From Trueperaceae bacterium (GTDB lineage Bacteria > Deinococcota > Deinococci > Deinococcales > Trueperaceae): a stretch of 14,821 nucleotides of DNA. Under the pieces are notes generated by a model. That model made no database searches. It had not been told where the DNA came from and saw only the letters and a list, made by a program, of their open reading frames with translations. The translations under genes and the position numbers were made by a program. This document shows positions 4,094 to 14,821 of the stretch, piece by piece. The stretch lies in contig JAGXHO010000143.1 in the NCBI GenBank assembly GCA_024636105.1, positions 1-14,821 of the forward strand. Reading direction: 5' to 3'. The stretch's first letter is position 1. The number at the start of each line of letters is the position of its first letter.

Positions 4094-4819
4094 TCAGCGT
4101 GGCCGGTGCGCCCGCAGGTGCGCGCCCAGGTCGACGGCCGTCTTGATCCCCACGAACAGCAGGAGGGCGGCCACCGGCTCGCCGAGCGCCACGATCAGGA
4201 ACGCGCCGACGACCAGCGTGATGTGCAGGACGAAGACGCGCCCGTACGGGCGCGCCATCAGCGCGTTGGGCGACGTCTGCAGGCCCTCGCCGCGCTGCAA
4301 CACGTTGCCCACGAACGAGATCCCATGGCTGACGACCAACCCCGCGGCGGTGAGGAGCAGGCCCCCGCTCAGGTACCGAGCCGCGATCTCCGGGCCGCCG
4401 CCGAAGAAGCCGAGCGGCCCGTCCATGACGGCTCCGTCGAGGAACGTGCTCGCGTCCCCCGCGAACACCCCGCCGGGCGCGAAGAGCGCCACCACGAAGA
4501 ACCCGTGCGCCGACCAGAACGCGCCGTAATGGACCGTGAAGAAGGCGATGAGGAACAGCTTGCCGAAGAGGCCGCCGAGCCCGCCGGCCGTGCCGTCCGG
4601 CCCGCGCGTGAGGAGCATCGCCAGCGCCGTGTAGACGCCGATGACGCCGTTCTCGAACCAATAGAGGAGCATGAGGTCGATCGTGGACCAATCGAAGAAG
4701 GCCACGCCGGCGAGCGGGAACAGGTTGGCGGCGACGAGCGCCGCGACGGCCCATGGCGTTGATGCCGCGGTGGATGCGGCGGCGGACACGGACGTTGGCG
4801 CTGCAGTGGACGCGGGCAC
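4094..4819 (-). CDS. DUF6498-type integral membrane protein, paralogue 1
   Basis: A 241-residue membrane protein of unknown function. After an Ala/Ser/Thr-rich, probably disordered N-terminus (1-21) come about five or six hydrophobic segments at roughly 23-42, 46-70, 86-115, 152-174 and 193-228. Conserved-looking blocks are DLMLLYWFENGVIGVY (49-63), FFTVHYGAFWSAHGFF (93-108) and SHGISFVGNVLQRGE (164-178), which match what I know of DUF6498. It shares most of these blocks and its C-terminal AHLRAHR with the protein at 5591-6334, so the two are paralogues. The GTG start at 4819 lacks a clear ribosome-binding site; a GTG at 4789 is an alternative and would shorten only the disordered tail. It lies just downstream of the broken kinase gene on the same strand. 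No enzymatic or transport role can be given. Confidence 0.85.
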   Translation of the reverse strand: MPASTAAPTSVSAAASTAASTPWAVAALVAANLFPLAGVAFFDWSTIDLMLLYWFENGVIGVYTALAMLLTRGPDGTAGGLGGLFGKLFLIAFFTVHYGAFWSAHGFFVVALFAPGGVFAGDASTFLDGAVMDGPLGFFGGGPEIAARYLSGGLLLTAAGLVVSHGISFVGNVLQRGEGLQTSPNALMARPYGRVFVLHITLVVGAFLIVALGEPVAALLLFVGIKTAVDLGAHLRAHRPR

Positions 4820-4828
4820 CCGCGGAGT

Positions 4829-5451
4829 CTAGCCGGCGTCCCGCCCGCGGCCAAGCCCGCCACCAGCGCGCCGGCGAAGGTGTCGCCCGCGCCGGTCGTG
4901 TCGACCACGGGCACGCGCCGCGCCGGTCGCCGCCCGCGCTCGGCGCCGCGAGTCCAAGCGAGCCCGTCGGCCCCCAGCGTCAGCACCACGGTCGCGTAGC
5001 GGTCCGCGAGCGCGTCGAGCAGCGCGTCCGCCTCGCTTGGATCGGCCGCCGGCACAAGCGCGGCGCCTACGAAGGCGTCCGGGTCGAGGTCGTCCGGCGC
5101 AAGGCGACCGTTGGCGCCGGCCTCGAGCACGATCACGTTCTCGCCGCCGTCGGCCACGAGGATGGTGGCGAAGCCAGTCGGCCCCTGGAAGGCGCGCAAC
5201 CCGGCCACGTCGACGCCGTCCGCGACCAACGCAGCGCGCAGCCGCGCGCCCTCGGCGTCGCCGCCCACCGCGCCCAAGAAGCGCACGGACGCGCCCGTGC
5301 GCGCCGCGGCCACGGCCTGGTTGGCCCCCTTGCCGCCATGGAACGTCGCGAACGACGTGCCGTGCACCGTCGCGCCGGCCGCCGGCAGGGCTGCCACGGC
5401 CTGCACGCGATCGAGGTTGACGCTGCCGACCACGACGACCGGGCGCCTCAT
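4829..5451 (-). pseudogene. Ribokinase-like PfkB carbohydrate kinase, internally deleted and C-terminally truncated
   Basis: The reading from ATG 5451 is clearly a ribokinase: VVVVGSVNLDRV (5-16), the substrate loop FHGGKGANQAVAAARTGA (37-54), ENVIVLEAGAN (104-114), VVLTLGADGLAW (155-166) and the anion-hole/catalytic motif DTTGAGDTF (184-192, base D190). Intact ribokinases have this last motif near residue 250 and a total near 300. Here about 60 residues are missing after FVGAALV (residue 133), the part that carries the NPAP and PNExE motifs, and the roughly 45 residues after GLAAG are absent. Beyond residue 204 the same frame stays open to 4369 but only reads the neighbouring membrane gene out of frame. 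In the alternative frame a TAG (4831-4829) occurs six bases after the last recognisable codons. I call it a pseudogene; a working miniature kinase is unlikely because the sugar/ATP domain core is lost. Its former product would phosphorylate ribose or a related sugar or nucleoside. Confidence 0.75.
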
Positions 5452-5546
5452 GAGGCGCCCGCCACCGGCGCGCCCCCTAGGCGCCGCGCCGCGTCGACCG
5501 CTCCCGCCGACACGGCGGTGTTGGTCGCTGCTTCGTCCGAAGGCAT
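5448..5546 (-). CDS. 32-codon ORF overlapping the kinase start (doubtful, possible gene remnant)
   Basis: A short frame from ATG 5546 encodes an Ala-rich peptide starting MPSDEAATNTAVSAGAVDAA and ending at a TGA that overlaps the kinase ATG (ATGA). Its first bases, ATGCCTTCGGACGA, resemble the start of the paralogue gene at 6334 (ATGCCCCCGGACGA), differing at two positions, so it may be the leftover 5' end of another copy. No good ribosome-binding site is seen. It could equally be noise in GC-rich DNA; I do not claim that it is translated. Confidence 0.22.
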   Translation of the reverse strand: MPSDEAATNTAVSAGAVDAARRLGGAPVAGAS

Positions 5547-5590
5547 GCGCGGAGTGCAGCCGCTCTGCGCGCACCCGCACGCACGACGCT

Positions 5591-6334
5591 TCAACGAACG
5601 GCAGGCCGCATCCGGTGCGCGCGCACATGGGCGCGCAGATCGACGCCGGTCTTGACCAAGACGAACAGCGCAAGGCCGACGACCGGCTGGCCAAGCGCCG
5701 TGACGACGAGTCCACCGATCACGATCGTGACCTGAAGGACGACCACGCGGCCGAACGGCCGCCACACGAGGACGCTGGCTGGGGTGTGCCGGTCCTCGCC
5801 CCGAAGCACCACGTTGCCGACGAACGACAGGCCGTGGCTGAGCAGAAGCCCCAACGCTGAGAGCTGCAGACCCCCCTCCAGCACGCGGCCGACGCCCGAC
5901 TGGGCGCCGAAGAAGAGGCCGGAGTTGCCCCCGGGGAGCACGGCGGGGCGCAGGTCCGTCGCGGCACCGAACACGCCTCCGGGCCCGAAGATCTCGACGA
6001 CGGAGGAGCCGAGCGCGAACCACAGGAAGCCGTAGAAGACGGCGACGCCGCCGACGGAGTAGAGCTTGGCCAGCACCCCACGCAGACCGCGCGACCGGTG
6101 GGGGTCCGGTCCGTCCGCTAGGAACAGCTGGACGAGGGTGAAGAGACCGATCACGCCGGTCTCGAACCAGTAGAGCAGGATCAGGTCGAAGGTCGACCAG
6201 CCCCACCAGAGGACCCCGAGGAGTGGCACCGCGTTGGCCGCCACCAGCGCGGCGACCGCCCACGGCGGCGACGCGCGACCCGGCGACGACGCGGGCTCGA
6301 CCGACGCGTCGACGGCGCCATCGTCCGGGGGCAT
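5591..6334 (-). CDS. DUF6498-type integral membrane protein, paralogue 2
   Basis: A 247-residue membrane protein of unknown function, paralogous to the product of 4094-4819. Shared blocks in the same order are PPWAVAALVAAN (23-34), WSTFDLILLYWFETGVIGLF (46-65), FGPGGVFG (116-123), LLLSHGLSFVGNVVLRGED (163-181), PFGRVVVLQVTIVIGG (193-208) and VKTGVDLRAHVRAH (227-240). Hydrophobic segments fall at about 25-44, 49-72, 92-116, 155-176 and 196-228. The first 22 residues are acidic and Pro/Ser/Ala-rich and differ from paralogue 1. ATG 6334 is the first start after the upstream gene; the frame is open further upstream but there it only shadows the propeller gene. No strong Shine-Dalgarno is visible. 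It lies 77 bp after the propeller gene on the same strand, so read-through from that operon is possible. Function unknown. Confidence 0.86.
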   Translation of the reverse strand: MPPDDGAVDASVEPASSPGRASPPWAVAALVAANAVPLLGVLWWGWSTFDLILLYWFETGVIGLFTLVQLFLADGPDPHRSRGLRGVLAKLYSVGGVAVFYGFLWFALGSSVVEIFGPGGVFGAATDLRPAVLPGGNSGLFFGAQSGVGRVLEGGLQLSALGLLLSHGLSFVGNVVLRGEDRHTPASVLVWRPFGRVVVLQVTIVIGGLVVTALGQPVVGLALFVLVKTGVDLRAHVRAHRMRPAVR

Positions 6335-6389
6335 CGGCGAAGGGTAGCCGCTCCGAGCGCGCGCGTTCGACCGCTTCGCCTTCGGCGCC

Positions 6390-6411
6390 GCCGGCCCGCT
6401 GCCGCGCCGGC
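6390..6411 (-). terminator. GC hairpin directly after the propeller gene stop (weak)
   Basis: The self-complementary hexamer GCCGGC occurs at 6390-6395 and 6406-6411, separated by 10 bases, and abuts the stop codon at 6412-6414 on the minus strand. It could end or stabilise the secreted-protein transcript. The stem is short, the loop is long, there is no U-run, and such hexamers are common at this GC content. Confidence 0.22.
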
Positions 6412-7902
6412 TCAAGGGTGGAGCTGGATCACGAACGCGTCGACGTCGCCCTGGCTGGTGGTCAGCAGATCGCCGTCGGTCTCGCCGACGATGACGGCCG
6501 CGCCCGCGGCGTCCACGGCCACCCCCCACGCGTAGTCGCCGCGCTCCGAGCCGAACTGCCGCCGCCACACCTCCGAGAAGTCGGCGGCGAGGGCGACCGC
6601 GAGCGCGTCGGTGTCGCCGAACGGCTCCTCGGCGAAAGCGCCGGTGCCGTGGCCCACGACCACGACCCCACCCTCGGGGCGCACTGCGATCGCGCTGCCG
6701 TTCTCGTTCGCCTCGGTGCCGAGCTGCACGCGCCGCACCTCGTCCCCGTCGGGATCGAGCTCGAGCACGTAGAGGTCGCCCAGCCCGGCGTTCGCGCCGT
6801 CGAGGTCGCCGGAGGTGTACCCGGTCACGAAGGCGTGGCCCCGAGCGTCGACGGCGAGCGCCTGGACGATCTCGCCCGCGTCGGTCCCGAACTGGAGGTC
6901 CCACACCGCGCCCAAAGTGGCGGTGTACTTGACAACGAACGCGTCCGACGCCCCCGCCGACGGGCCGAAGAGCGAACCGTCCGTCCGACCGCCCACCACC
7001 ACGTTCCCGTCCGCGTCGACCGCGACGCCGTAGGCGACGTCCTGGGCGGCCGTGCCGTACTGGCGGAACCACGCCGGCTCGCCGACCGCGTCGAGCTTGG
7101 CGACCCAGGCGTCGGTGCTGCCGACGTTCGGCGCGAAGAGCGCGCCCTGGGTGGCGCCGACCAGCACGACCAAGCCGTCCGCCCCCACGGCCACGTCGCG
7201 CACCACGTCGTACACGGGCGAACCGAACTGCGTGCGCCAGAGCTCGTCGCCGTCGGCGTCGTACACGACCACGAAGACGTCGTCCCCACCCGCGCCGGGT
7301 CCGTCGATGCCGCCGCCCGTCGACCCCGCGACCACCACGCGCCCCGTGGCGTCGATCGCCACGGCCTCGGCTTCGTCGGTCGCCGGCGAGCCGACCTGTC
7401 GTCGCCAACGCTCGGCCCCATCGGGGCCGTAGCGGACGACGAACGCGTCGGCGTCGCCCGCGTTGCCGCCGCCCAAGGCGCCCGACGACGTGCCGACCAC
7501 GACCAGGTCGCCGTCCGCCGCGAACGCCACGTCCCGAGCGACGTCGTAGCCGATCGTGCCGAGCTGATGCGCCCAGGCCCAGCGTGCGACCTCGACCTCC
7601 GCCTCGCCGCTGCGGGTGGGGTCCTGGACGCTCGTCGCGACGACCGTGCACGGCCCTTCGACGTCGGGCGCAACGTAGGTCACCGAGGCGCCCGATCCGA
7701 CGAGGGCGCCGCAGGTCGCGGTCCAGAAGACCGAGGGGTCGCTGGCGTTCGCCACCGTCGCCGCGAACTCGAGCTCGCCACCCGGCAGGACGAACGCCGT
7801 CGCCGGCGCCACCGTCACCTGGACGAGCACCGGTGGCGGTGTGCACCCGACGAGCACGAGCACCGCTCCGAACACCATCGCCGACGGGCCCGATCTACGC
7901 AT
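6412..7902 (-). CDS. Secreted lipoprotein: Ig-like domain plus seven-bladed SBBP-type beta-propeller
   Basis: A 496-residue exported protein with three parts. Residues 1-20 are a lipoprotein signal (LVLVGC, lipid attachment at C20). Residues 23-106 form a bacterial Ig-like domain with a possible C64-C85 disulfide. Residues 108-496 are seven repeats of about 56 residues, each reading roughly W..Q.GT..YD....VAVDA.G.VVV.G.T.G.L.....G..DAFVV.Y..DG...W, beginning near 110, 166, 222, 278, 334, 390 and 446; this is the SBBP beta-propeller pattern. Seven units would close a complete propeller, with the C-terminal DAFVIQLHP completing a blade. Start 7902 is fixed by GGGAG about 6 bases upstream and by the signal peptide. 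It is last in the operon with the subtilase and fibre genes, preceded by a strong hairpin. It probably binds something at the cell surface; no catalytic motif is seen and the ligand is unknown. Confidence 0.9.
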   Translation of the reverse strand: MRRSGPSAMVFGAVLVLVGCTPPPVLVQVTVAPATAFVLPGGELEFAATVANASDPSVFWTATCGALVGSGASVTYVAPDVEGPCTVVATSVQDPTRSGEAEVEVARWAWAHQLGTIGYDVARDVAFAADGDLVVVGTSSGALGGGNAGDADAFVVRYGPDGAERWRRQVGSPATDEAEAVAIDATGRVVVAGSTGGGIDGPGAGGDDVFVVVYDADGDELWRTQFGSPVYDVVRDVAVGADGLVVLVGATQGALFAPNVGSTDAWVAKLDAVGEPAWFRQYGTAAQDVAYGVAVDADGNVVVGGRTDGSLFGPSAGASDAFVVKYTATLGAVWDLQFGTDAGEIVQALAVDARGHAFVTGYTSGDLDGANAGLGDLYVLELDPDGDEVRRVQLGTEANENGSAIAVRPEGGVVVVGHGTGAFAEEPFGDTDALAVALAADFSEVWRRQFGSERGDYAWGVAVDAAGAAVIVGETDGDLLTTSQGDVDAFVIQLHP

Positions 7903-7917
7903 GCAAGCTCCCAAGGG

Positions 7918-7949
7918 CCCGGTCCGGGCCGCGAACGGCCCGGACCGGG
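7918..7949 (-). terminator. Perfect 13-bp hairpin between subtilase and propeller genes
   Basis: CCCGGTCCGGGCC (7918-7930) and its exact reverse complement (7937-7949) enclose a 6-base loop (GCGAAC). On the minus strand it lies 30 bases after the subtilase stop and ends just before the propeller's GGGAG ribosome-binding site. No U-run follows, only CCCTT. It may be a partial terminator, an mRNA-stabilising end that sets different expression of the two genes, or a protein-binding palindrome. Confidence 0.6.
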
Positions 7950-7979
7950 GTGCGCGCGATGCGCTCGGCGTCGGTGCCG

Positions 7980-10448
7980 TCAGAAGATCAGGTTCCACTC
8001 GAAGTCCACGAAGTCCGTCCCGACGTTACCGCCTTGGTCGGTCACGTTCAGGCGCACCCGCACCGGGTATAGACCGGCCTGGTTGAACGGGATCGACTGA
8101 TTGGGCGTCCACTGGATCGTCGCCTGGTCGCCGATGACCACCGGGGCGAACACACCCAGCTGGTACGTCCACTGGTACGTCAGCGGCCCCGCGGCCTCAG
8201 GATCGCTCGCGTCGCCCATGAGCGTGATCGGCTGGTCGATCGGCGGGCTGGCACTGGCGGCGGAGGTGGTCACCACCACGTTCGGCGGCAGGTCGGGCGG
8301 CGGTTCGACGACGCTGATCTGCACCGTCGCGACGTCGCTCGCCCCTTGAGGGTCCGTCGCCGTGACGGTCAAGGTGCGGTTGCCGTTGCTGGCGAACGCC
8401 ACCGGCACCTCGCAGCCGACGACCGGGAAGTCGGTGTCGCCGGGCACGCTGCTCGTCCACGTCAGGGCGCTGCACGCGAGCACACCGCCGGGTTGGTTGA
8501 CGTCGGTCGCGGTCCCGCGCAGCACCACCGTCGCGGTGCGGAAGACCTCGGCGAACGGCTCCGGCGCCGTCAGCGTCACCTGGGGCGGGAAGTTCACGAC
8601 CTCGACCTGGATCGACACCGCCGTGCTCGCACCGTCCGGATCGGTCGCGGTGGCGGTCACGACCCGGTCGCCCAGCGACGCGAAGGTGTGCTCGAGTTGC
8701 CACCCGTCGCCCAACGGACCGTCGACGTCGGACGTCCACACGACGGTGCAGCATGGGAACGAATCCTCGACGTCCTGCACGGTGACGCCCAGGTAGGTGG
8801 GGACGCCGAAGGGGACCGTGACGCCGACCGCATCGCCGTTGAACTCAATGTAGGGTGGCACGTTGCCGAGGGCGGCCCGGACTGCGGCGAAGGCGTTCAC
8901 GCGGCGCCCGACTTGGTGGTGGTCGTTGACGTGCGCGGTCGCGAGGAGTATGTCCTCGACATCGCCCGCGCCGAGGCTCGGGTCCGCGGCCCAGACGAGC
9001 GCCGCCACGCCAGCGACGAAGGGCGACGAGAAGCTCGTCCCGGACTTCGCCTGCGCCACGTTGCCGGGGGTGGTCGGGTCGGGTCCGAGCCAGAGCGTGT
9101 ACGGGGCGAAGAGGTCGACCTGCTCGAGACCGTAGTTCGATCCGCTCGCGCGGTCGGTCCCACCGGCGGTCGTGCCACCGACGCAGATCACGCCGGCGTT
9201 CTCGCAGGGCGTCACCCAGGTCCGCTCCCAGCAGCCCAAGAACGTCGTGCACCCCTCGGCATCGACGTCCTTGCCGTCGTTGCCGGCCGCCGCGAACAGC
9301 AACATGCCGGTCGCGCGGAACGTGGCGGTGGCGATCTCGAACGGGAGCACCGACCAGCCCAAGTACCACGGCACCGGGGCGCTGTAGCTCATGTTGGCGA
9401 TGCGCGCGCCCAGGAGGCGCGCCTCCCCCAGGGCGGTGATCGAGGTGAAGAAGTCGTACGAGGTGAACACGAGCACGGGTCGTGCCACCGGGCCGCCCGG
9501 TCCGGCACCGCCGAAGCCGTCGTCCGCGAGCGCCATCGCCGCGCTCGCCGCCATCTGCCCATGCCACGGGCACTCGGCGCCGCCGCCACACCAGAGCAGG
9601 TTCTCGGACCCGATCGCCGAGACGAACGGCACGTTGGAGAACGCACGGTAGTCGCCGGCGAGGTCGCCGCCCGGCTGGAAGCCCATGTCGAGGATCGCGA
9701 GGTTCACCCGGTTGCCGAGCTTGTCGGCGAGCTCCAGGGCGCGCCAGGCCTCGCCAACGCCGATGTCGGGGCCGGTGCCGTACCGGTGCGACGGCCATGA
9801 GAAGGCGTCGCGACCGTACGCCGAGCCTGCGGTCCCCGTGCCCGACGTCGCCTCGGTGGTGGAACGGTCGGTGAACTGACCGCCACGACCCACCCAGTTG
9901 ATGCCGACCGCCGCACCGGCGCGCGCCTCGGCGCTGGCGGCCGCGAGCAGGTCGAGGCCGTCCGCGCTCGACACGCGGTGGTCGCCCGTGGCGGTCGGCT
10001 CGAGCGCGCGCAGGTCGGCCGCCAAGGCGGCCGGGTCGGCGCCGCTCGCGTCCACGCGGACGAGGTACTGGACGACCATCCCGGTCAAGCCGTACGCGGC
10101 CGGGTCGAACGTGGACAGCACGGTGCCGTCCCAGCGCGCGAGGAAGGCGGCGAGCTCGGCCGCGTCGTCGGTGGCGAGCCACAGCTCGTCCGCGACGAAG
10201 GTGGCCACCGCGCCGTCGTCGCCGGTGACCGCGGCGAGGGGGCGCGGAGCACCGTCGGCGAAGCCGGGGAGGGCGTCCTCGGGTGGCGCGACGGCCGCGT
10301 CGACGGAGAGCGAGACCGGGGCCAGCGGGGCGCCGGGGGCCGCGCAGGCGCCGAGCACCAGGAGGGCGGCGAGGAAGGCGCCGGCCGCGCGAATGGCGCG
10401 GCCGGTCGCTGGACGTCGAACGGTCGAACGAGGGTCGATCGAACGCAT
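7980..10448 (-). CDS. S8 family subtilisin-like serine protease, lipoprotein with C-terminal Ig/PKD-like domains
   Basis: An 822-residue exported protease. Residues 1-35 are a long lipoprotein signal (ALLVLGAC, lipid site C35). Residues 36-230 include a probable propeptide. The catalytic domain (about 230-530) has all S8 elements: Asp254 in LAILDMGF, His296 in CPWHGQMAASAAMA, oxyanion Asn390 in LLFAAAGNDG and Ser472 in KSGTSFSSPFVAGVAAL. Six cysteines (287, 293, 400, 406, 415, 422) sit in this domain and could form disulfides. Three Ig/PKD-like domains follow (about 530-617, 619-714, 720-822) with repeated TVTATDPDGAS-like segments. The ATG at 10448 has AGGAGA 5 bases upstream. It begins 25 bp after the fibre gene, so they are co-transcribed. 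It should act outside the cell, tethered to a membrane, and might process the neighbouring fibre or propeller proteins, although general nutrition or a defensive role is possible. Confidence 0.94.
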   Translation of the reverse strand: MRSIDPRSTVRRPATGRAIRAAGAFLAALLVLGACAAPGAPLAPVSLSVDAAVAPPEDALPGFADGAPRPLAAVTGDDGAVATFVADELWLATDDAAELAAFLARWDGTVLSTFDPAAYGLTGMVVQYLVRVDASGADPAALAADLRALEPTATGDHRVSSADGLDLLAAASAEARAGAAVGINWVGRGGQFTDRSTTEATSGTGTAGSAYGRDAFSWPSHRYGTGPDIGVGEAWRALELADKLGNRVNLAILDMGFQPGGDLAGDYRAFSNVPFVSAIGSENLLWCGGGAECPWHGQMAASAAMALADDGFGGAGPGGPVARPVLVFTSYDFFTSITALGEARLLGARIANMSYSAPVPWYLGWSVLPFEIATATFRATGMLLFAAAGNDGKDVDAEGCTTFLGCWERTWVTPCENAGVICVGGTTAGGTDRASGSNYGLEQVDLFAPYTLWLGPDPTTPGNVAQAKSGTSFSSPFVAGVAALVWAADPSLGAGDVEDILLATAHVNDHHQVGRRVNAFAAVRAALGNVPPYIEFNGDAVGVTVPFGVPTYLGVTVQDVEDSFPCCTVVWTSDVDGPLGDGWQLEHTFASLGDRVVTATATDPDGASTAVSIQVEVVNFPPQVTLTAPEPFAEVFRTATVVLRGTATDVNQPGGVLACSALTWTSSVPGDTDFPVVGCEVPVAFASNGNRTLTVTATDPQGASDVATVQISVVEPPPDLPPNVVVTTSAASASPPIDQPITLMGDASDPEAAGPLTYQWTYQLGVFAPVVIGDQATIQWTPNQSIPFNQAGLYPVRVRLNVTDQGGNVGTDFVDFEWNLIF

Positions 10449-10473: not shown

Positions 10474-11604
10474 TCAGCGGGCGCGGAGCTCGGCGACCTC
10501 GGCCGCGAGCGCCTCGATCTGCGCGCGCTGCTCGGTCACCAGCGCGTGCAGCCCTTGGATGGCGGCGAGCGCCACCCCCTGGGCGTCGGCGGTGTTGATG
10601 GTGGTGTCGTCACCGCCGAGTCCGAACGCGGCCCGGAAGTCCTGCGCCGTCGGGCCCAGGTGGGGCGTCGCGTCGGCGTCGCCGCGCATCGACCAGGAAG
10701 TGACCGGCATGGCGACCAAGCGCTCGAGCACCCATGCGTCGTCGACCGGCGCGAAGTTCTCCTTGAGGTTCGCATCGGACGTGCAGCTCCAGCCCGCGCC
10801 GCCCGCGAAGCTGCAGGAACCGCTGCCGCCGGAACCGCCCGTGAAGACCGCCGCCGTGCCGGTCGAGCTGACGCCCAGCACCCCGACACCGGCCGGCGCA
10901 CATCCACCGACCGCGTACGTGCCGGCGCAGGACGTCGCGCCGAGCGTCCCCACCACCGCGCGGGCGTCGCTCGTGGCCCACATGCCGATGCCGTTCGTGC
11001 TGATCGCGCGCACACCCAATCCGTCCACCGCGCAACCGCCGACCGCGTAGACGCCAGGGCACGACGCGGCGCCACCGAGCGTGCCGACCACCGCGCGGGT
11101 GTCGCTGGTGGCCCACATGCCGATGCCGGTCGTGCTGACCGCGCGCACGCCCGTTTCAGCGCCGCCGCACCCGCCCACCGCGTACGGGCCGGCGCACGAG
11201 CCGTCGCCGATGACGCCCACGAGGGCGCGCGCCGTCGACCGGGCGAGCAGCCCGATCGGCGAGCCCACCGCGGAGAAGTTCTGGATCGACAAGCCCGTGC
11301 CGACGTCGCCCGACCAGGACTGGCCCACGTGGTCGTGCTCGTTGCTCGCACCGGCACCGTCGTCGGTCTCGCACACGACCGAGCCGTCCACGCCGATCTC
11401 ACGGATCGACGTGCCCGCCGCGCACACGCCGGTCACGCGCTCCTGCTTCCCGTCGTCGAGCGCCTGGAGATTCTGGTTCATCTGGTCGGCGGAGATGACG
11501 TCGCCCGCCTGGAACACGAACGGGACGCTGACCGCGGCGCCCCAGACGGTGAGCGTGAGCGCGGTCACGGCGAGCAGTTTGAACCGGAGGTCGAGTCGGC
11601 GCAT
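10474..11604 (-). CDS. Fibre-like exported protein with C-terminal S74 intramolecular chaperone domain
   Basis: A 376-residue protein. Residues 1-33 look like a signal peptide or anchor (RFKLLAVTALTLTVWG). Residues 34-52 (GDVISADQMNQNLQALDDG) match the N-terminal oligomerising stretch common in bacterial fibre-like proteins, and HDHVGQSWSG (90-99) is also typical. Residues 127-257 are about three repeats of 44-45 residues. The S74 domain follows: SDANLKENF starts at 276, with HLGPTAQDFRAAFGLG (315-330) and GVALAAIQGL (343-352), and ends in a coiled coil (LVTEQRAQIEALAAEVAEL). The Ser276-Lys281 spacing equals the S-x4-K dyad of self-cleaving S74 proteins (endosialidase spikes, MYRF), so release of a roughly 100-residue chaperone is predicted. 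Start 11604 has GAGG 7 bases upstream; an in-frame ATG at 11634 overlaps the preceding stop and has none. Probably a trimeric surface fibre; phage origin is not needed. Confidence 0.9.
   Translation of the reverse strand: MRRLDLRFKLLAVTALTLTVWGAAVSVPFVFQAGDVISADQMNQNLQALDDGKQERVTGVCAAGTSIREIGVDGSVVCETDDGAGASNEHDHVGQSWSGDVGTGLSIQNFSAVGSPIGLLARSTARALVGVIGDGSCAGPYAVGGCGGAETGVRAVSTTGIGMWATSDTRAVVGTLGGAASCPGVYAVGGCAVDGLGVRAISTNGIGMWATSDARAVVGTLGATSCAGTYAVGGCAPAGVGVLGVSSTGTAAVFTGGSGGSGSCSFAGGAGWSCTSDANLKENFAPVDDAWVLERLVAMPVTSWSMRGDADATPHLGPTAQDFRAAFGLGGDDTTINTADAQGVALAAIQGLHALVTEQRAQIEALAAEVAELRAR
10834..11226 (-). repeat. Imperfect tandem repeat in the fibre stalk, unit 132-135 bp
   Basis: Three copies encode residues 127-170, 171-215 and 216-257 of the fibre protein. 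Each holds AVVGTLG-like, SC.G.YAVGGC and GVRA.ST.GIGMWATSD segments; the last copy loses the final part. At DNA level copies 2 and 3 match closely, for example around 10952 and 11087, exactly 135 bp apart. Each unit carries a cysteine pair (about 8 residues apart), which could staple the stalk. Confidence 0.75.
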
Positions 11605-11630
11605 CGTGGTGCCTCGCTTTCGTGGGGCGT

Positions 11631-11777
11631 TCATGGCTGCCACGTGGACGTGCCCCAGACGCCCTGGTCCCAGGTCGCTCCGGCCGCGGGCGGATTGCCG
11701 CCGCAGCCGCCGAGCGCCGCCAACAGCAGCAGCCCTACGACGATTCGGGAGATCGTTCGGCAGTGGTCGCTTGGCAT
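11631..11777 (-). CDS. 48-residue lipoprotein, first gene of the secreted operon
   Basis: A very small exported lipoprotein. It starts MPSDHCRTISRIVVG, has a hydrophobic core LLLLAALGGC with the lipid-site cysteine at residue 25, and leaves a mature peptide of only about 24 residues (CGGNPPAAGATWDQGVWG and a few more, ending in TWQP). ATG 11777 is chosen because GGAGG lies 7 bases upstream; an earlier in-frame ATG at 11822 would add 15 residues before the signal and sits between the proposed promoter and this site. Its stop is 26 bp before the fibre gene start, so they are co-transcribed. No known family is recognised; it may act as an assembly or entry factor at the surface, or be a leader peptide. 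Confidence 0.72.
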   Translation of the reverse strand: MPSDHCRTISRIVVGLLLLAALGGCGGNPPAAGATWDQGVWGTSTWQP

Positions 11778-11836
11778 CGGTTCCCTCCACGCACGCGTGG
11801 GCACCCCATGTCGCGGGGGCATCGGCGTTGCCGGTC

Positions 11837-11842
11837 ACCCTA
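11837..11842 (-). promoter_or_regulatory. Candidate -10 element (TAGGGT) of the secreted operon
   Basis: Minus-strand TAGGGT matches three of six -10 bases (T1, A2, T6), predicts a leader of about 50 bases before ATG 11777, and lies 9 bases after the paired repeats at 11852-11870. A weak -10 without a -35 is normal for activator-dependent SARP promoters, which is why I name it despite the poor match. Confidence 0.35.
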
Positions 11843-11851
11843 GGTGGCGAC

Positions 11852-11870
11852 CGCCACACCAGCGCCACAC
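11852..11870 (-). promoter_or_regulatory. Candidate SARP operator: two GTGTGGCG direct repeats, 11-bp period
   Basis: On the minus strand GTGTGGCG occurs at 11870-11863 and again at 11859-11852, identical and exactly 11 bp apart, so both face the same side of the helix. SARP activators are known to bind heptamer direct repeats 11 bp apart, with the last repeat about 8 bp before the -10. Here a -10-like TAGGGT starts 9 bp later and the divergent gene is a SARP-type regulator. Partial inverted copies (GGTGGCG at 11843, GGTGGC at 11871) flank the pair. The repeats are seen; binding is inferred. Confidence 0.5.
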
Positions 11871-11898: not shown

Positions 11899-11904
11899 TA
11901 CACT
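11899..11904 (+). promoter_or_regulatory. Candidate -10 element (TACACT) of the regulator gene
   Basis: GCTACACTC places a four-of-six -10 at 11899-11904, giving a leader of about 35 bases before ATG 11945. No -35 is recognisable, and the paired repeats at 11852-11870 end about 28 bp upstream, so autoregulation is possible. Confidence 0.4.
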
Positions 11905-11944: not shown

Positions 11945-14821
11945 ATGGCCCAGCTCGCGACGCTCGGTGGTCTGACGCTCGACCCACCCGGGTTCGCGCA
12001 GGCCAAACCGCTCGTGCTGCTCGCGTACCTGGTCGTCGAGGGACCCCAACCGCGGCGACGTCTGGCCGACCTGTTCTGGCCGGAAGGCCAGGGGCGCAAG
12101 AGCCTCTCGATGGCGCTCACCCGCCTTCGCCACGGCGTCGGCGACGTCGTCGCCACCGATGACCGCCGGGTCTGGGCGACTTGCGCAAGCGACGTCGACG
12201 AGCTGCTCCGGGCGTTGGACGCCGGCGCGTGGGCTCGGGCCGACGCGCGCTACGTGGGCGCCTTCCTCGACGGCGTCGCGCTCGCCGACGCCAGCGCCGA
12301 GATCGAGGAGTGGCTGCTCGCGACCCGCGAGCACTTGGCCGACCGCGTGCGCCACGCGCTGCTCGAGCTCTCCGAGGACGCTGCCCGGGCAGGTCGCTTC
12401 ACCGAAGCCGGTGCGGCGGCCGAACGGGCGTACCGCCTCGCCGGTGCCGCCCCTGCGGAGCCCGCCGTGCTCGAGCGCCTCCACGCGCTGCTGTGCGCCG
12501 GCCGCAGCCGGCACGCGCCGGACGCGCGCCGCGAACTGGCGGAGTACGGCGTCGCCGTCCACCTCACGACCGACGAGGCTCGCGCGCGATGGCGGCGCGA
12601 AGCGGTGCCGAGACCACCGACCAACCTCGCGGCGCAGCGCACCTCCTTCATCGGGCGCACCGCGGAGCTCGCGTGGATCGCCGAAGCGCTCGCTCGTCCG
12701 GAGGGGCGCCTCGTCACGCTCGTCGGACCTGGCGGCATCGGCAAGTCGCGCCTCGCGCACGAAGCGGCGCGCGCGGTGCTGACCGACGATCGCTACCCGG
12801 ACGGCGTCTTCGCGGTCGCCGGCAGCGACGCGGCGGCGCTCGCGCACGCCGTGGCGGCGGCGGTCGGGCCGGATGGTTTGGGCCCGGACGCCACCGACGG
12901 GGCGCCGGGTGACCCGTGGTCGCGCGCCACGGCGGCGCTCCGGAACGCTCGGGCACTCGTCGTGATCGACGACCTGGACGGCACGCCCGACGCCGCCGAA
13001 CGCATCGACGCGCTCCTGGCCGGTACGACCGATCTCACCATCGTCGCGACGGCGCGGCGGCGCCTCGGCGTGGACGGCGAACGGGTCGTGGTGGTGCCCG
13101 GGCTTCCGGTGCCCGCGGCCGACGAGACCTGGTCCCATGCGCTCGGCAGCGACGGCGTGCGCTTGCTGCTCGAACGGGCGAGCCAAGCCCAGGCCGGGCT
13201 CGATCTGGCGCCGCAAGCCCGCGACGTGATCGCCCTGTGCCGCGCCCTCGAGGGGTGGCCGCTCGCGCTGGAGCTGGTCGCCCCCTGGACCCGACTGATG
13301 TCGTGCGCGGACCTCGTCGCCCAGCTCGTCGACGACCCGGACTTCATCGCCGCCGACGCCGACGCGGCGCCCGGCCGCCACCGCAGCCTGCGCTCGGTGT
13401 TCGAGGCGAGTTGGGGGCTGCTCGACGAGGTGGAGCGGGTCGCCGCCCGTCGCCTCGCGGTCTTCCGGGGCGGTTTCCGCCGTGAAGCCGCCGTGCAGGT
13501 GGCCGGAGCCACCTTGGCGACGCTGGCGCGTCTCGTCGACGCCTCGCTCGTCCGCGGCGGCCCCGACGGCCGCTACTCGGTCCACGCGCTCGTCGCCGCC
13601 TCGCTCGTCGAGAAGCTCGCGGAGGCCGGCGAGCGGGCGACCGCGACGGCGAGCCACCGGCGCCACTACCTCGGGTGGTTGGCAGCCCAGCGCGAGCGCT
13701 TGGGCCAGGGCCATCAGGCCGAGGTGTTCGCGGCTGCCCGCGAGGAGTGGGGCAACGTCGCGGTGATCCTGGAGGACGCCGTCGTGCACCGCGACCTCGC
13801 GACGGTCGCTGCGTTCCTCGACCTGCTCGACGTCGCCTTCGAGGCGCGCGGCGCGCTCGCCGAGGGCCTCCACTGGCTCCAGCGGGTCGACGAGGGGCTG
13901 GACGACGGGCCCACCGCACGGCTGCGCGCGCGCGTGCGCGTCGAGATCGGTTGGTTCCTGCAGCGCCTCGGCGACGTCGCCGCGGGGCGCGACCGCACCC
14001 AGGACGCGCTCGTCCTGCTCGACGCCGTCGCGCCGCCGTCCACCGAGCCAGCGCTGCGCGCCCGTGCGTGGATGAACCTCGCGGTGGCCGAGGGCGCCCT
14101 CGGCCACCGCGACCGCGCCCGCCCGCTGCTCGAACGGGCCCTGCACCTCGCTCGGTCGAGCGACGACCGCGGCGTCCTGGCAGCCGTCCTCGGGAGCCTG
14201 GGGGTCGACGCCGGCGAGCACGGGCGCGCCGCCGAAGCGACCGCCTTCTTCGAGGAGGCGGTCGAGCTCCACGAGCGCGACGGTCGGGTGCTCGGCGCGA
14301 TCCGTGAGCTCGGCAACCTCGCCATCGCCTGTGGCGAACAGGACGACTTCGCGCGGTCCGGCGCGCTCTTCGAGCGGAGCCTGGCGCTCGCGCGCTCGAT
14401 CGGGTTCCGACAGACGCTCCCCTTCACGCTCTCCAACCTGGGCGTGCACCACGAGCGGCTCGGTGACTTGGCGCGCGCCCGCGAACTCAACGTCGAGGCC
14501 CGAACCGTCGCGGTCGAGACGGGCCAGCGCCCGATCCTCGTCGGCATCCTGGTCAACCTCGTGTCCGTGCACCGGCGCCTCGGCGAGACCAGCGCCGCAG
14601 TCGAGGCATCGAACCAGGCGCTGGCGCTGGCGCGCGACCTCCGCATGGAACCCCTGCAGGCCCAGGCCCTCGAGGCCCGAGCCGAGCTCGCGGCGGCGAT
14701 CGGCGACCGCGCTTGGGCGGCGCGGCTGACCCAGGCCGTACTGCAGAGCCCGGCGACGCGCTCGTACACGGGCAACGGCGCGGCTGAGGCATGGGCGCGG
14801 CTGCGCCCTGTGCTGAGCGCG
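11945..14821 (+). CDS. SARP/BTAD-type transcriptional regulator with NB-ARC (STAND) ATPase and TPR repeats (3' end beyond window)
   Basis: An open frame of 959 codons running off the end, probably nearly complete. Residues 1-65 form an OmpR/SARP-like winged helix (KPLVLLAYLVVEGPQPRRRL and LADLFWPE, then LSMALTRLRHG). Residues 85-215 form a helical BTAD-like region. A STAND ATPase follows: P-loop GPGGIGKS (261-268, Lys267), Walker B LVVIDDLD (338-345), an ATARRR sensor, and EGWPLALEL (436-444), the counterpart of GLPL. A winged-helix linker spans about 478-560, and from about 575 to the end TPR-type helical pairs recur (for example ARARPLLERALHLARS). ATG 11945 has GGAGG 5 bases upstream. Such regulators are held inactive until a ligand or partner allows ATP-driven oligomerisation. 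It is divergent from the secreted operon and is its likely activator; the signal is unknown. The family pattern is common in Deinococcota and Actinobacteria. Confidence 0.9.
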   Translation, partial: MAQLATLGGLTLDPPGFAQAKPLVLLAYLVVEGPQPRRRLADLFWPEGQGRKSLSMALTRLRHGVGDVVATDDRRVWATCASDVDELLRALDAGAWARADARYVGAFLDGVALADASAEIEEWLLATREHLADRVRHALLELSEDAARAGRFTEAGAAAERAYRLAGAAPAEPAVLERLHALLCAGRSRHAPDARRELAEYGVAVHLTTDEARARWRREAVPRPPTNLAAQRTSFIGRTAELAWIAEALARPEGRLVTLVGPGGIGKSRLAHEAARAVLTDDRYPDGVFAVAGSDAAALAHAVAAAVGPDGLGPDATDGAPGDPWSRATAALRNARALVVIDDLDGTPDAAERIDALLAGTTDLTIVATARRRLGVDGERVVVVPGLPVPAADETWSHALGSDGVRLLLERASQAQAGLDLAPQARDVIALCRALEGWPLALELVAPWTRLMSCADLVAQLVDDPDFIAADADAAPGRHRSLRSVFEASWGLLDEVERVAARRLAVFRGGFRREAAVQVAGATLATLARLVDASLVRGGPDGRYSVHALVAASLVEKLAEAGERATATASHRRHYLGWLAAQRERLGQGHQAEVFAAAREEWGNVAVILEDAVVHRDLATVAAFLDLLDVAFEARGALAEGLHWLQRVDEGLDDGPTARLRARVRVEIGWFLQRLGDVAAGRDRTQDALVLLDAVAPPSTEPALRARAWMNLAVAEGALGHRDRARPLLERALHLARSSDDRGVLAAVLGSLGVDAGEHGRAAEATAFFEEAVELHERDGRVLGAIRELGNLAIACGEQDDFARSGALFERSLALARSIGFRQTLPFTLSNLGVHHERLGDLARARELNVEARTVAVETGQRPILVGILVNLVSVHRRLGETSAAVEASNQALALARDLRMEPLQAQALEARAELAAAIGDRAWAARLTQAVLQSPATRSYTGNGAAEAWARLRPVLSA

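Follow-up and report, generated by a model that had tools for sequence, protein, structure and literature searches.

The window, by which we mean the whole stretch of 14,821 nucleotides that was analysed, contains a large regulator gene and a divergent operon for secreted proteins, with the gap between them holding a pair of direct repeats. The regulator gene (11945..14821, plus strand) encodes a SARP-like protein with a SARP domain, an NB-ARC/AAA ATPase part and TPR repeats, and continues past the end of the window. The operon lies on the minus strand and starts with a 48-amino-acid lipoprotein (11631..11777) that has a lipobox-like LGGC and the Shine-Dalgarno sequence GGAGGG; its stop overlaps the ATG of the next gene (ATGA, 11634-11631), and it is an addition to the operon as the earlier note had it. 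A fibre-like protein with a Peptidase_S74 intramolecular chaperone domain (10474..11634, Pfam 6.9e-10), a subtilase (Peptidase_S8) with PKD domains (7980..10448, Pfam 1.2e-19) and an SBBP beta-propeller protein (6412..7998, Pfam 1.1e-18) follow. Homologues of the lipoprotein are found in loci L115 (46%) and L116 (33%), each immediately 5' of a fibre gene, and genome G032 has a homologue of the fibre-like protein (66%). Further along the minus strand, a membrane protein at 4094-4819 and the 3' part of frame 5591-7846 have ALVAAN..PL.GV....WST.DL.LLYWFE in common, and judging from this they are likely a tandem duplication. Frame 4369-5715, between these two look-alike proteins, is ribokinase-like by look.

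In the gap between the regulator ATG (11945, plus) and the first ATG of the operon (11777, minus) the minus strand reads GCCACC GTGTGGCG CTG GTGTGGCG GTCGCCACC TAGGGT. The upstream copy of GTGTGGCG occupies 11863..11870 (core TGTGGC at 11869-11864) and the downstream copy 11852..11859 (core at 11858-11853), and both are conserved in relatives. The copies have a period of 11, and 9 bp separate the downstream one from the -10-like TAGGGT at 11837..11842. Direct reading thus confirms two observations that had been made before, that two identical 8-mers 11 bp apart stand 9 bp before a minus-strand TAGGGT, and that they do so in a gap common to a divergent regulator gene. The hexamer 17 bp 5' of TAGGGT is GCGCTG, and by eye there is no -35. 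Transcription of the operon would start near 11830.

As given in the available parts of PMC10936776, SARP operators are direct repeats with a period of 11 or 22 bp and 8 bp to the -10. The SARP geometry that had been proposed for the pair agrees with this rule in its period of 11, and the gap is 9 here, not 8; the gaps of 9-10 seen in this study are one or two bases above the published value. Taken by itself, the single pair of the window is weak evidence and only mildly unusual. An exact run of at least 8 at period 11 occurs in 1.7% of 2000 random 300-base stretches drawn from related loci. TGTGGCG-N4-TGTGGCG occurs exactly once in the window and six further matches carry three mismatches, a total of seven that is ordinary compared to shuffles (mean 5.08). 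The case for the pair is strong because comparison shows its conservation, not because of this one locus.

The fold of the regulator

Pfam finds NB-ARC (23.7 bits, cut-off 23.5) and TPR_12 (70.2 bits) in the regulator, and AAA_16 slightly under its cut-off (31.4 bits, cut-off 32.6), so that the protein has the central nucleotide-binding domain and the C-terminal TPR repeats of large SARPs. The N-terminal SARP module (11945..12604, plus strand) consists of an OmpR-type winged helix followed by BTA-like helices, and its recognition helix is formed by residues 50-65 (GRKSLSMALTRLRHGV, 12092..12139, plus strand; H50-65 in the model). The BTA domain is recognised by fold: Pfam BTAD has no match in the window's regulator, although it matches all 31 homologous N-termini aligned with it; on the Pfam results by themselves the protein would not have been counted as a SARP. 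A structure model from the N-terminus of the window and 31 N-termini of related loci reached a pLDDT of 86.8, with confidence falling after residue 170 (L060 was omitted from the structural alignment owing to an undetermined residue). The best VIA-align matches are EmbR and AfsR, over 199-200 residues in the model range 1-216 with an rmsd of 3.5-3.7. Foldseek also puts AfsR and EmbR on top (AfsR E 3.6e-05), but it superposes the whole model poorly on AfsR (TM 0.39, rmsd 9-14), which we counted against the operator reading. A profile of the window and its 31 homologues, drawing mostly on the latter, finds AfsR at 4.7e-24 with a match that covers positions 1-230; this match ranks below designed TPR proteins, whose matches cover only 155-216. 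M56 and R60 of the window align with AfsR T88 and R92, the two base-contacting residues in the structure of that protein (PMC10936776, available parts). According to the model the regulator has the SARP fold, and the earlier description of the adjacent gene as a SARP-type regulator holds on the fold matches to AfsR and EmbR as well as on the profile match to AfsR. Metagenomic relatives (P0001-P0004) have 77-82% identity. A search of 39 genomes for the full regulator, with up to 22 candidates scored per genome, gave no match at E ≤1e-150.

Conservation of the repeat pair in relatives

We sought TGTGGC-N5-TGTGGC in 39 genomes of one family, the Trueperaceae. The exact pair gave 15 rows in 9 genomes and the reversed pattern 23; since the reversed control is higher the raw count is uninformative and only placement speaks. 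Nine of the 15 rows adjoin a homologous regulator, S8 or lipoprotein/fibre gene in G021, G023, G027, G032 and G039, and they represent eight sites because G039 carries three copies in tandem. Six of these eight linked sites have NANNNT at gap 9 (TAGCCT, TAGCCT, TAGTCT, CATACT, CAAGCT and TAACGT), and in L116 and L170 a -10-like hexamer is better placed at gap 10. When the -10 was fixed (NANNNT, gap 9), nine exact rows were found; six are at linked genes, two belong to an unlinked lipoprotein gene and the one in G028 has no context, and the extra matches obtained by allowing one mismatch in the pair were mostly scattered. Around the pairs in G011, G028 and G029 nothing matches the proteins of the window. 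G026 has GGTGGC pairs in a regulator gap and 3' of an S8 gene. TGTGGC pairs are also located 5' of unlinked lipobox genes (G021:C4:98148, G024:C118:20739 and G023:C10:472708), which suggests that the regulon may extend past the operon next to the regulator. In G024 four regulators were found and the matching helix is present in none of them, despite the pair before its lipoprotein gene.

The S8 protease gives the clearest comparison. A search for its homologues yielded 14 rows, ten of which were examined besides the window. Where the cluster of an S8 gene contains a close homologue of the regulator, a pair is present at all six loci (the window, L115, L116, L166, L168 and L169; the word of L166 is GGTGGC), and none of the five S8 loci without a close regulator N-terminus has a TGTGGC pair (L163, L164, L165, L167 and L177; a GC-rich period-11 run within the S8 gene of L163 was excluded from the count). 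The S8 homologues of L115, L168 and L169 have a repeat pair of their own. In L116 and L166 there is no pair at S8 itself and the pair heads the divergent cluster, with an additional pair 3' of S8 in L166. Fibre/lipoprotein homologues at L117, L174, L175, G026:C69, G026:C61 and G028:C40 have no TGTGGC pair. Since the repeats are kept with the regulator (6/6 vs 0/5), they go with the regulator and not with the operon genes as such. Conservation across orthologous loci, which had been named as a check, is therefore seen where a close regulator homologue is present and not where one is missing, and the same result supports the earlier interpretation that the regulator is tied to a surface operon.

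Repeats and words across the regulator paralogues

Paralogues of the regulator are abundant in the family, with 35 matches in G002, some of which are pieces of one gene. At first 81 regulator matches gave 48 gaps, and seven later gaps were added, three of them with a run of at least 7; because of N masking the first set shrank by two gaps, from 49 to 47, and the hold-out by one, from 53 to 52. In the first set (300 bp upstream, run of at least 7) period 11 was present in 18 of 47 gaps, the other periods from 9 to 40 having a mean of 2.31 and a largest value of 6; without the TGTGGCG group it was 15 of 41 vs 1.76. The hold-out consisted of 28 genomes outside the set on which the idea was formed; 19 of them gave usable matches, 53 of 58 regulator matches were fetched, and period 11 was found in 13 of 52 gaps vs a mean of 2.69 (largest 9). 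For all paralogue gaps pooled we obtained 31 of 99 vs a mean of 5.0 and a largest value of 14 for other periods, for the pool with the seven late gaps 34 of 106 vs 5.55, and after collapsing to one gap per 65%-identity group 21 of 65 vs 3.07 (largest 8). A 7-base period-11 run is missing from 68 of the 99 gaps, and period 22 (7/99 vs the mean of 5.0) is hardly above other periods. Intergenic controls at a distance of over 3 kb from all such regulators had the run in 8 of 190 cases (Fisher 6e-10), a larger control that supersedes an earlier one from four genomes (7/75, Fisher 3e-4). The signal is uneven: in G026, G027, G002, G011, G031 and G013, picked as the genomes with the highest repeat yield, 20 of 40 regulator gaps vs 1 of 96 control gaps had the run, and in G014, G022, G021 and G023 the regulator gaps were not enriched (2/18 vs 7/94).

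A scan with the ATP-binding motif as pattern gave 80 loci (L001-L080), mostly from Chloroflexota and with no close relative among the matches listed. A run of at least 7 at period 11 was found in 15 of 75 loci vs 2.55 (largest 8), with starts only roughly placed and five of the 80 lacking usable upstream sequence; one of the 15, L037, is from Trueperaceae. Tandem 11-bp words vary among these loci, for example TGCAACGTTTC in L005, TTGGGACGATC in L025 and TTGACGCTGTG in L054.

The strand of the -10 might tell which gene the repeats serve. In the 31 repeat-bearing gaps a -10-like hexamer, by a pattern chosen after the gaps had been inspected, was found only on the divergent side in 13, only on the regulator side in one, on both in four and on neither in 13; with a stricter pattern the numbers were 9/20 for the divergent and 2/20 for the regulator side. 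By a simple pattern 14 of 33 predicted divergent ORFs have a lipobox. These data bear on the possibility that the repeats serve the adjacent regulator for its own gene, by autoregulation or repression, and not the divergent operon. A gap between divergent genes would be able to serve both sides, and in the window a plus-strand TACACT (11899-11904) has the repeats upstream too. However, the regulator of L115 is not divergent and the pairs there precede lipoprotein/fibre and S8 genes, and L168 and L169 carry a second pair immediately 5' of S8. Together with the strand bias of the -10 this placement disfavours autoregulation only, which we consider improbable.

The repeat words vary between paralogues (GTTAAGGGC, GACAGGGG, CTTTTACGCTTC and TTCAGGGC are examples), and regulators of different genomes with the same helix tend to have a common word. 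One late gap, G027_C563, has the word TTCACTAG in common with G026_C271. In Mantel tests word similarity correlated with winged-helix similarity (r 0.59, n=34; collapsed 0.53, n=26; hold-out 0.48, n=13) and with recognition-helix similarity (0.55; collapsed 0.46; hold-out 0.46), with p from 2e-4 to 4e-4 and the winged-helix values, 2e-4 each, at the floor of 5000 permutations. A run of 7 was required for inclusion, except for G021_C1 and G023_C7 (run of 6) and G032_C110. For G021_C1 the TGTGGC pair was preferred to a GC-rich run of equal length. For G032_C110 the operator was that of the lipoprotein promoter at this locus; the ORF picker had taken the fibre as first gene and the actual first gene is the small lipoprotein. 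When the recognition helix is left out of the winged helix, the correlation is about the same (0.64 vs 0.69 in the first set); a correlation driven by the helix itself and one driven by general relatedness would both fit and are not separated.

Within the KSLSM group seven regulators have Arg at the place of AfsR R92 beside GTGGC words and two have Leu beside TTGGC and ATGGC words, as expected if the Arg at this place reads G. No such operator lies in the adjoining 300 bp of G027_C66 and two masked G014 fragments, which have the same helix and Arg. The two G014 fragments (G014:C1:1196023 and 2789293) have identical N-termini with the helix KSLSMALTRLR and no operator pair; their nearest upstream bases are common, followed by divergence and then by masked sequence. 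Another helix, NRLSVTL, occurs with a repeated GACAG word in G008:C311, G009:C213, G010:C168, G011:C282, G002:C206 and G016:C282, and its divergent ORF, read in G008, G011 and G016, resembles a small membrane protein.

That the repeat word follows the winged helix of the adjacent regulator also argues against the alternative that a different dimeric factor binds a palindrome here. The repeats of the window are indeed flanked by inverted copies (GGTGGCG-AC-CGCCAC and GCCAC-ACG-GTGGC), but by eye there are none around the pairs of L115, L116, L168 and L169, where the direct repeat alone is conserved; we reject this reading as highly unlikely. A chance repeat in G+C-rich DNA, which the random stretches and the reversed control would each allow, is the least credible explanation and is rejected by the placement of the pairs: homologous promoters of another five genomes have them too, L116 with its lower G+C (46%) among them, and their distance to the -10 varies by no more than one base.

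Proposed mechanism and known systems

The TGTGGCG pair is very probably an operator through which an AfsR-like activator controls the divergent lipoprotein operon. This prediction is drawn from what the sequence shows: the repeats and the fact that they are conserved together with the regulator, its SARP fold, the strand preference of the -10-like hexamer, and the way in which the word varies along with the DNA-binding domain. The divergently encoded regulator would bind as two neighbouring protomers, one per 11-bp repeat, in the place where a -35 would be, and might recruit RNA polymerase to TAGGGT, a weak -10, and turn on the lipoprotein/fibre/protease/propeller operon. Binding, activation, the transcription start and a triggering signal are what we infer here. 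With the G that the Arg would read placed at the -38 contact of AfsR, the end of the second copy falls at -22, and the 9-bp gap then puts the -10 at -12, which can be compared with the usual place of a -10. The module of the window would be one of many paralogous regulator-operator pairs, each with its own word and often with a divergent lipoprotein gene.

As a wider hypothesis, towards which we lean only slightly, the large SARPs of Trueperaceae and, by the same signature, of Chloroflexota might have diversified into insulated pairs of one regulator and one operator, with every paralogue reading its own tandem 11-bp word via the two base-contacting positions known from the AfsR recognition helix (M56/R60 in window numbering) and driving its own neighbouring operon, often for a lipoprotein. 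If this were true the paralogue family would be a natural, decipherable collection of activator-operator pairs. The whole family yields many regulator/word pairs at once, through which it is testable how a SARP helix selects its word and which signal the ATPase-TPR part of a large SARP responds to, and it offers a rule from sequence for assigning targets to many unstudied regulators. The data suggest that a readable regulator-to-DNA code may exist outside the actinobacteria, a placement that rests on the nearest genomes being of the family Trueperaceae.

We found no literature on Trueperaceae with SARP. Among the matches listed for SARP/AfsR in Deinococcus, Truepera and Chloroflexota, no title or beginning of an abstract describes such operators outside actinobacteria, in a coverage that most subscription journals lie outside of; a paper on Deinococcus deserti has 'SARP family' in its text (PMC3564903). 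The SARP operator literature found, as far as its available parts go, concerns Streptomyces antibiotic genes, and here the same geometry marks surface lipoprotein/protease operons in another phylum.

Three known systems invite comparison, on the available portions of the papers cited. EmbR of Mycobacterium tuberculosis (2fez, 2ff4) has a C-terminal FHA domain where the window's protein has ATPase and TPR parts (PMC10936776). SARP-LAL regulators of the PimR type from Streptomyces are similar in being large regulators with an N-terminal SARP and heptameric direct repeats (PMC5930380, PMC3367932), but the C-terminal part of the window's regulator, its word and its target differ. AfsR from Streptomyces coelicolor, with its afs box, is alike in architecture and operator: both regulators combine SARP, nucleotide-binding and TPR parts, and in both systems two 11-bp direct repeats lie between the place of the -35 and the -10 (PMC10936776). 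In contrast to AfsR, however, the system of the window belongs to another phylum (its nearest genomes being Trueperaceae), uses a different word, TGTGGCG, with a gap of 9 and not the 8 of the SARP rule, is directed at a surface lipoprotein/protease operon and not at an antibiotic regulator, and is part of a family with many paralogues, often with words of their own.
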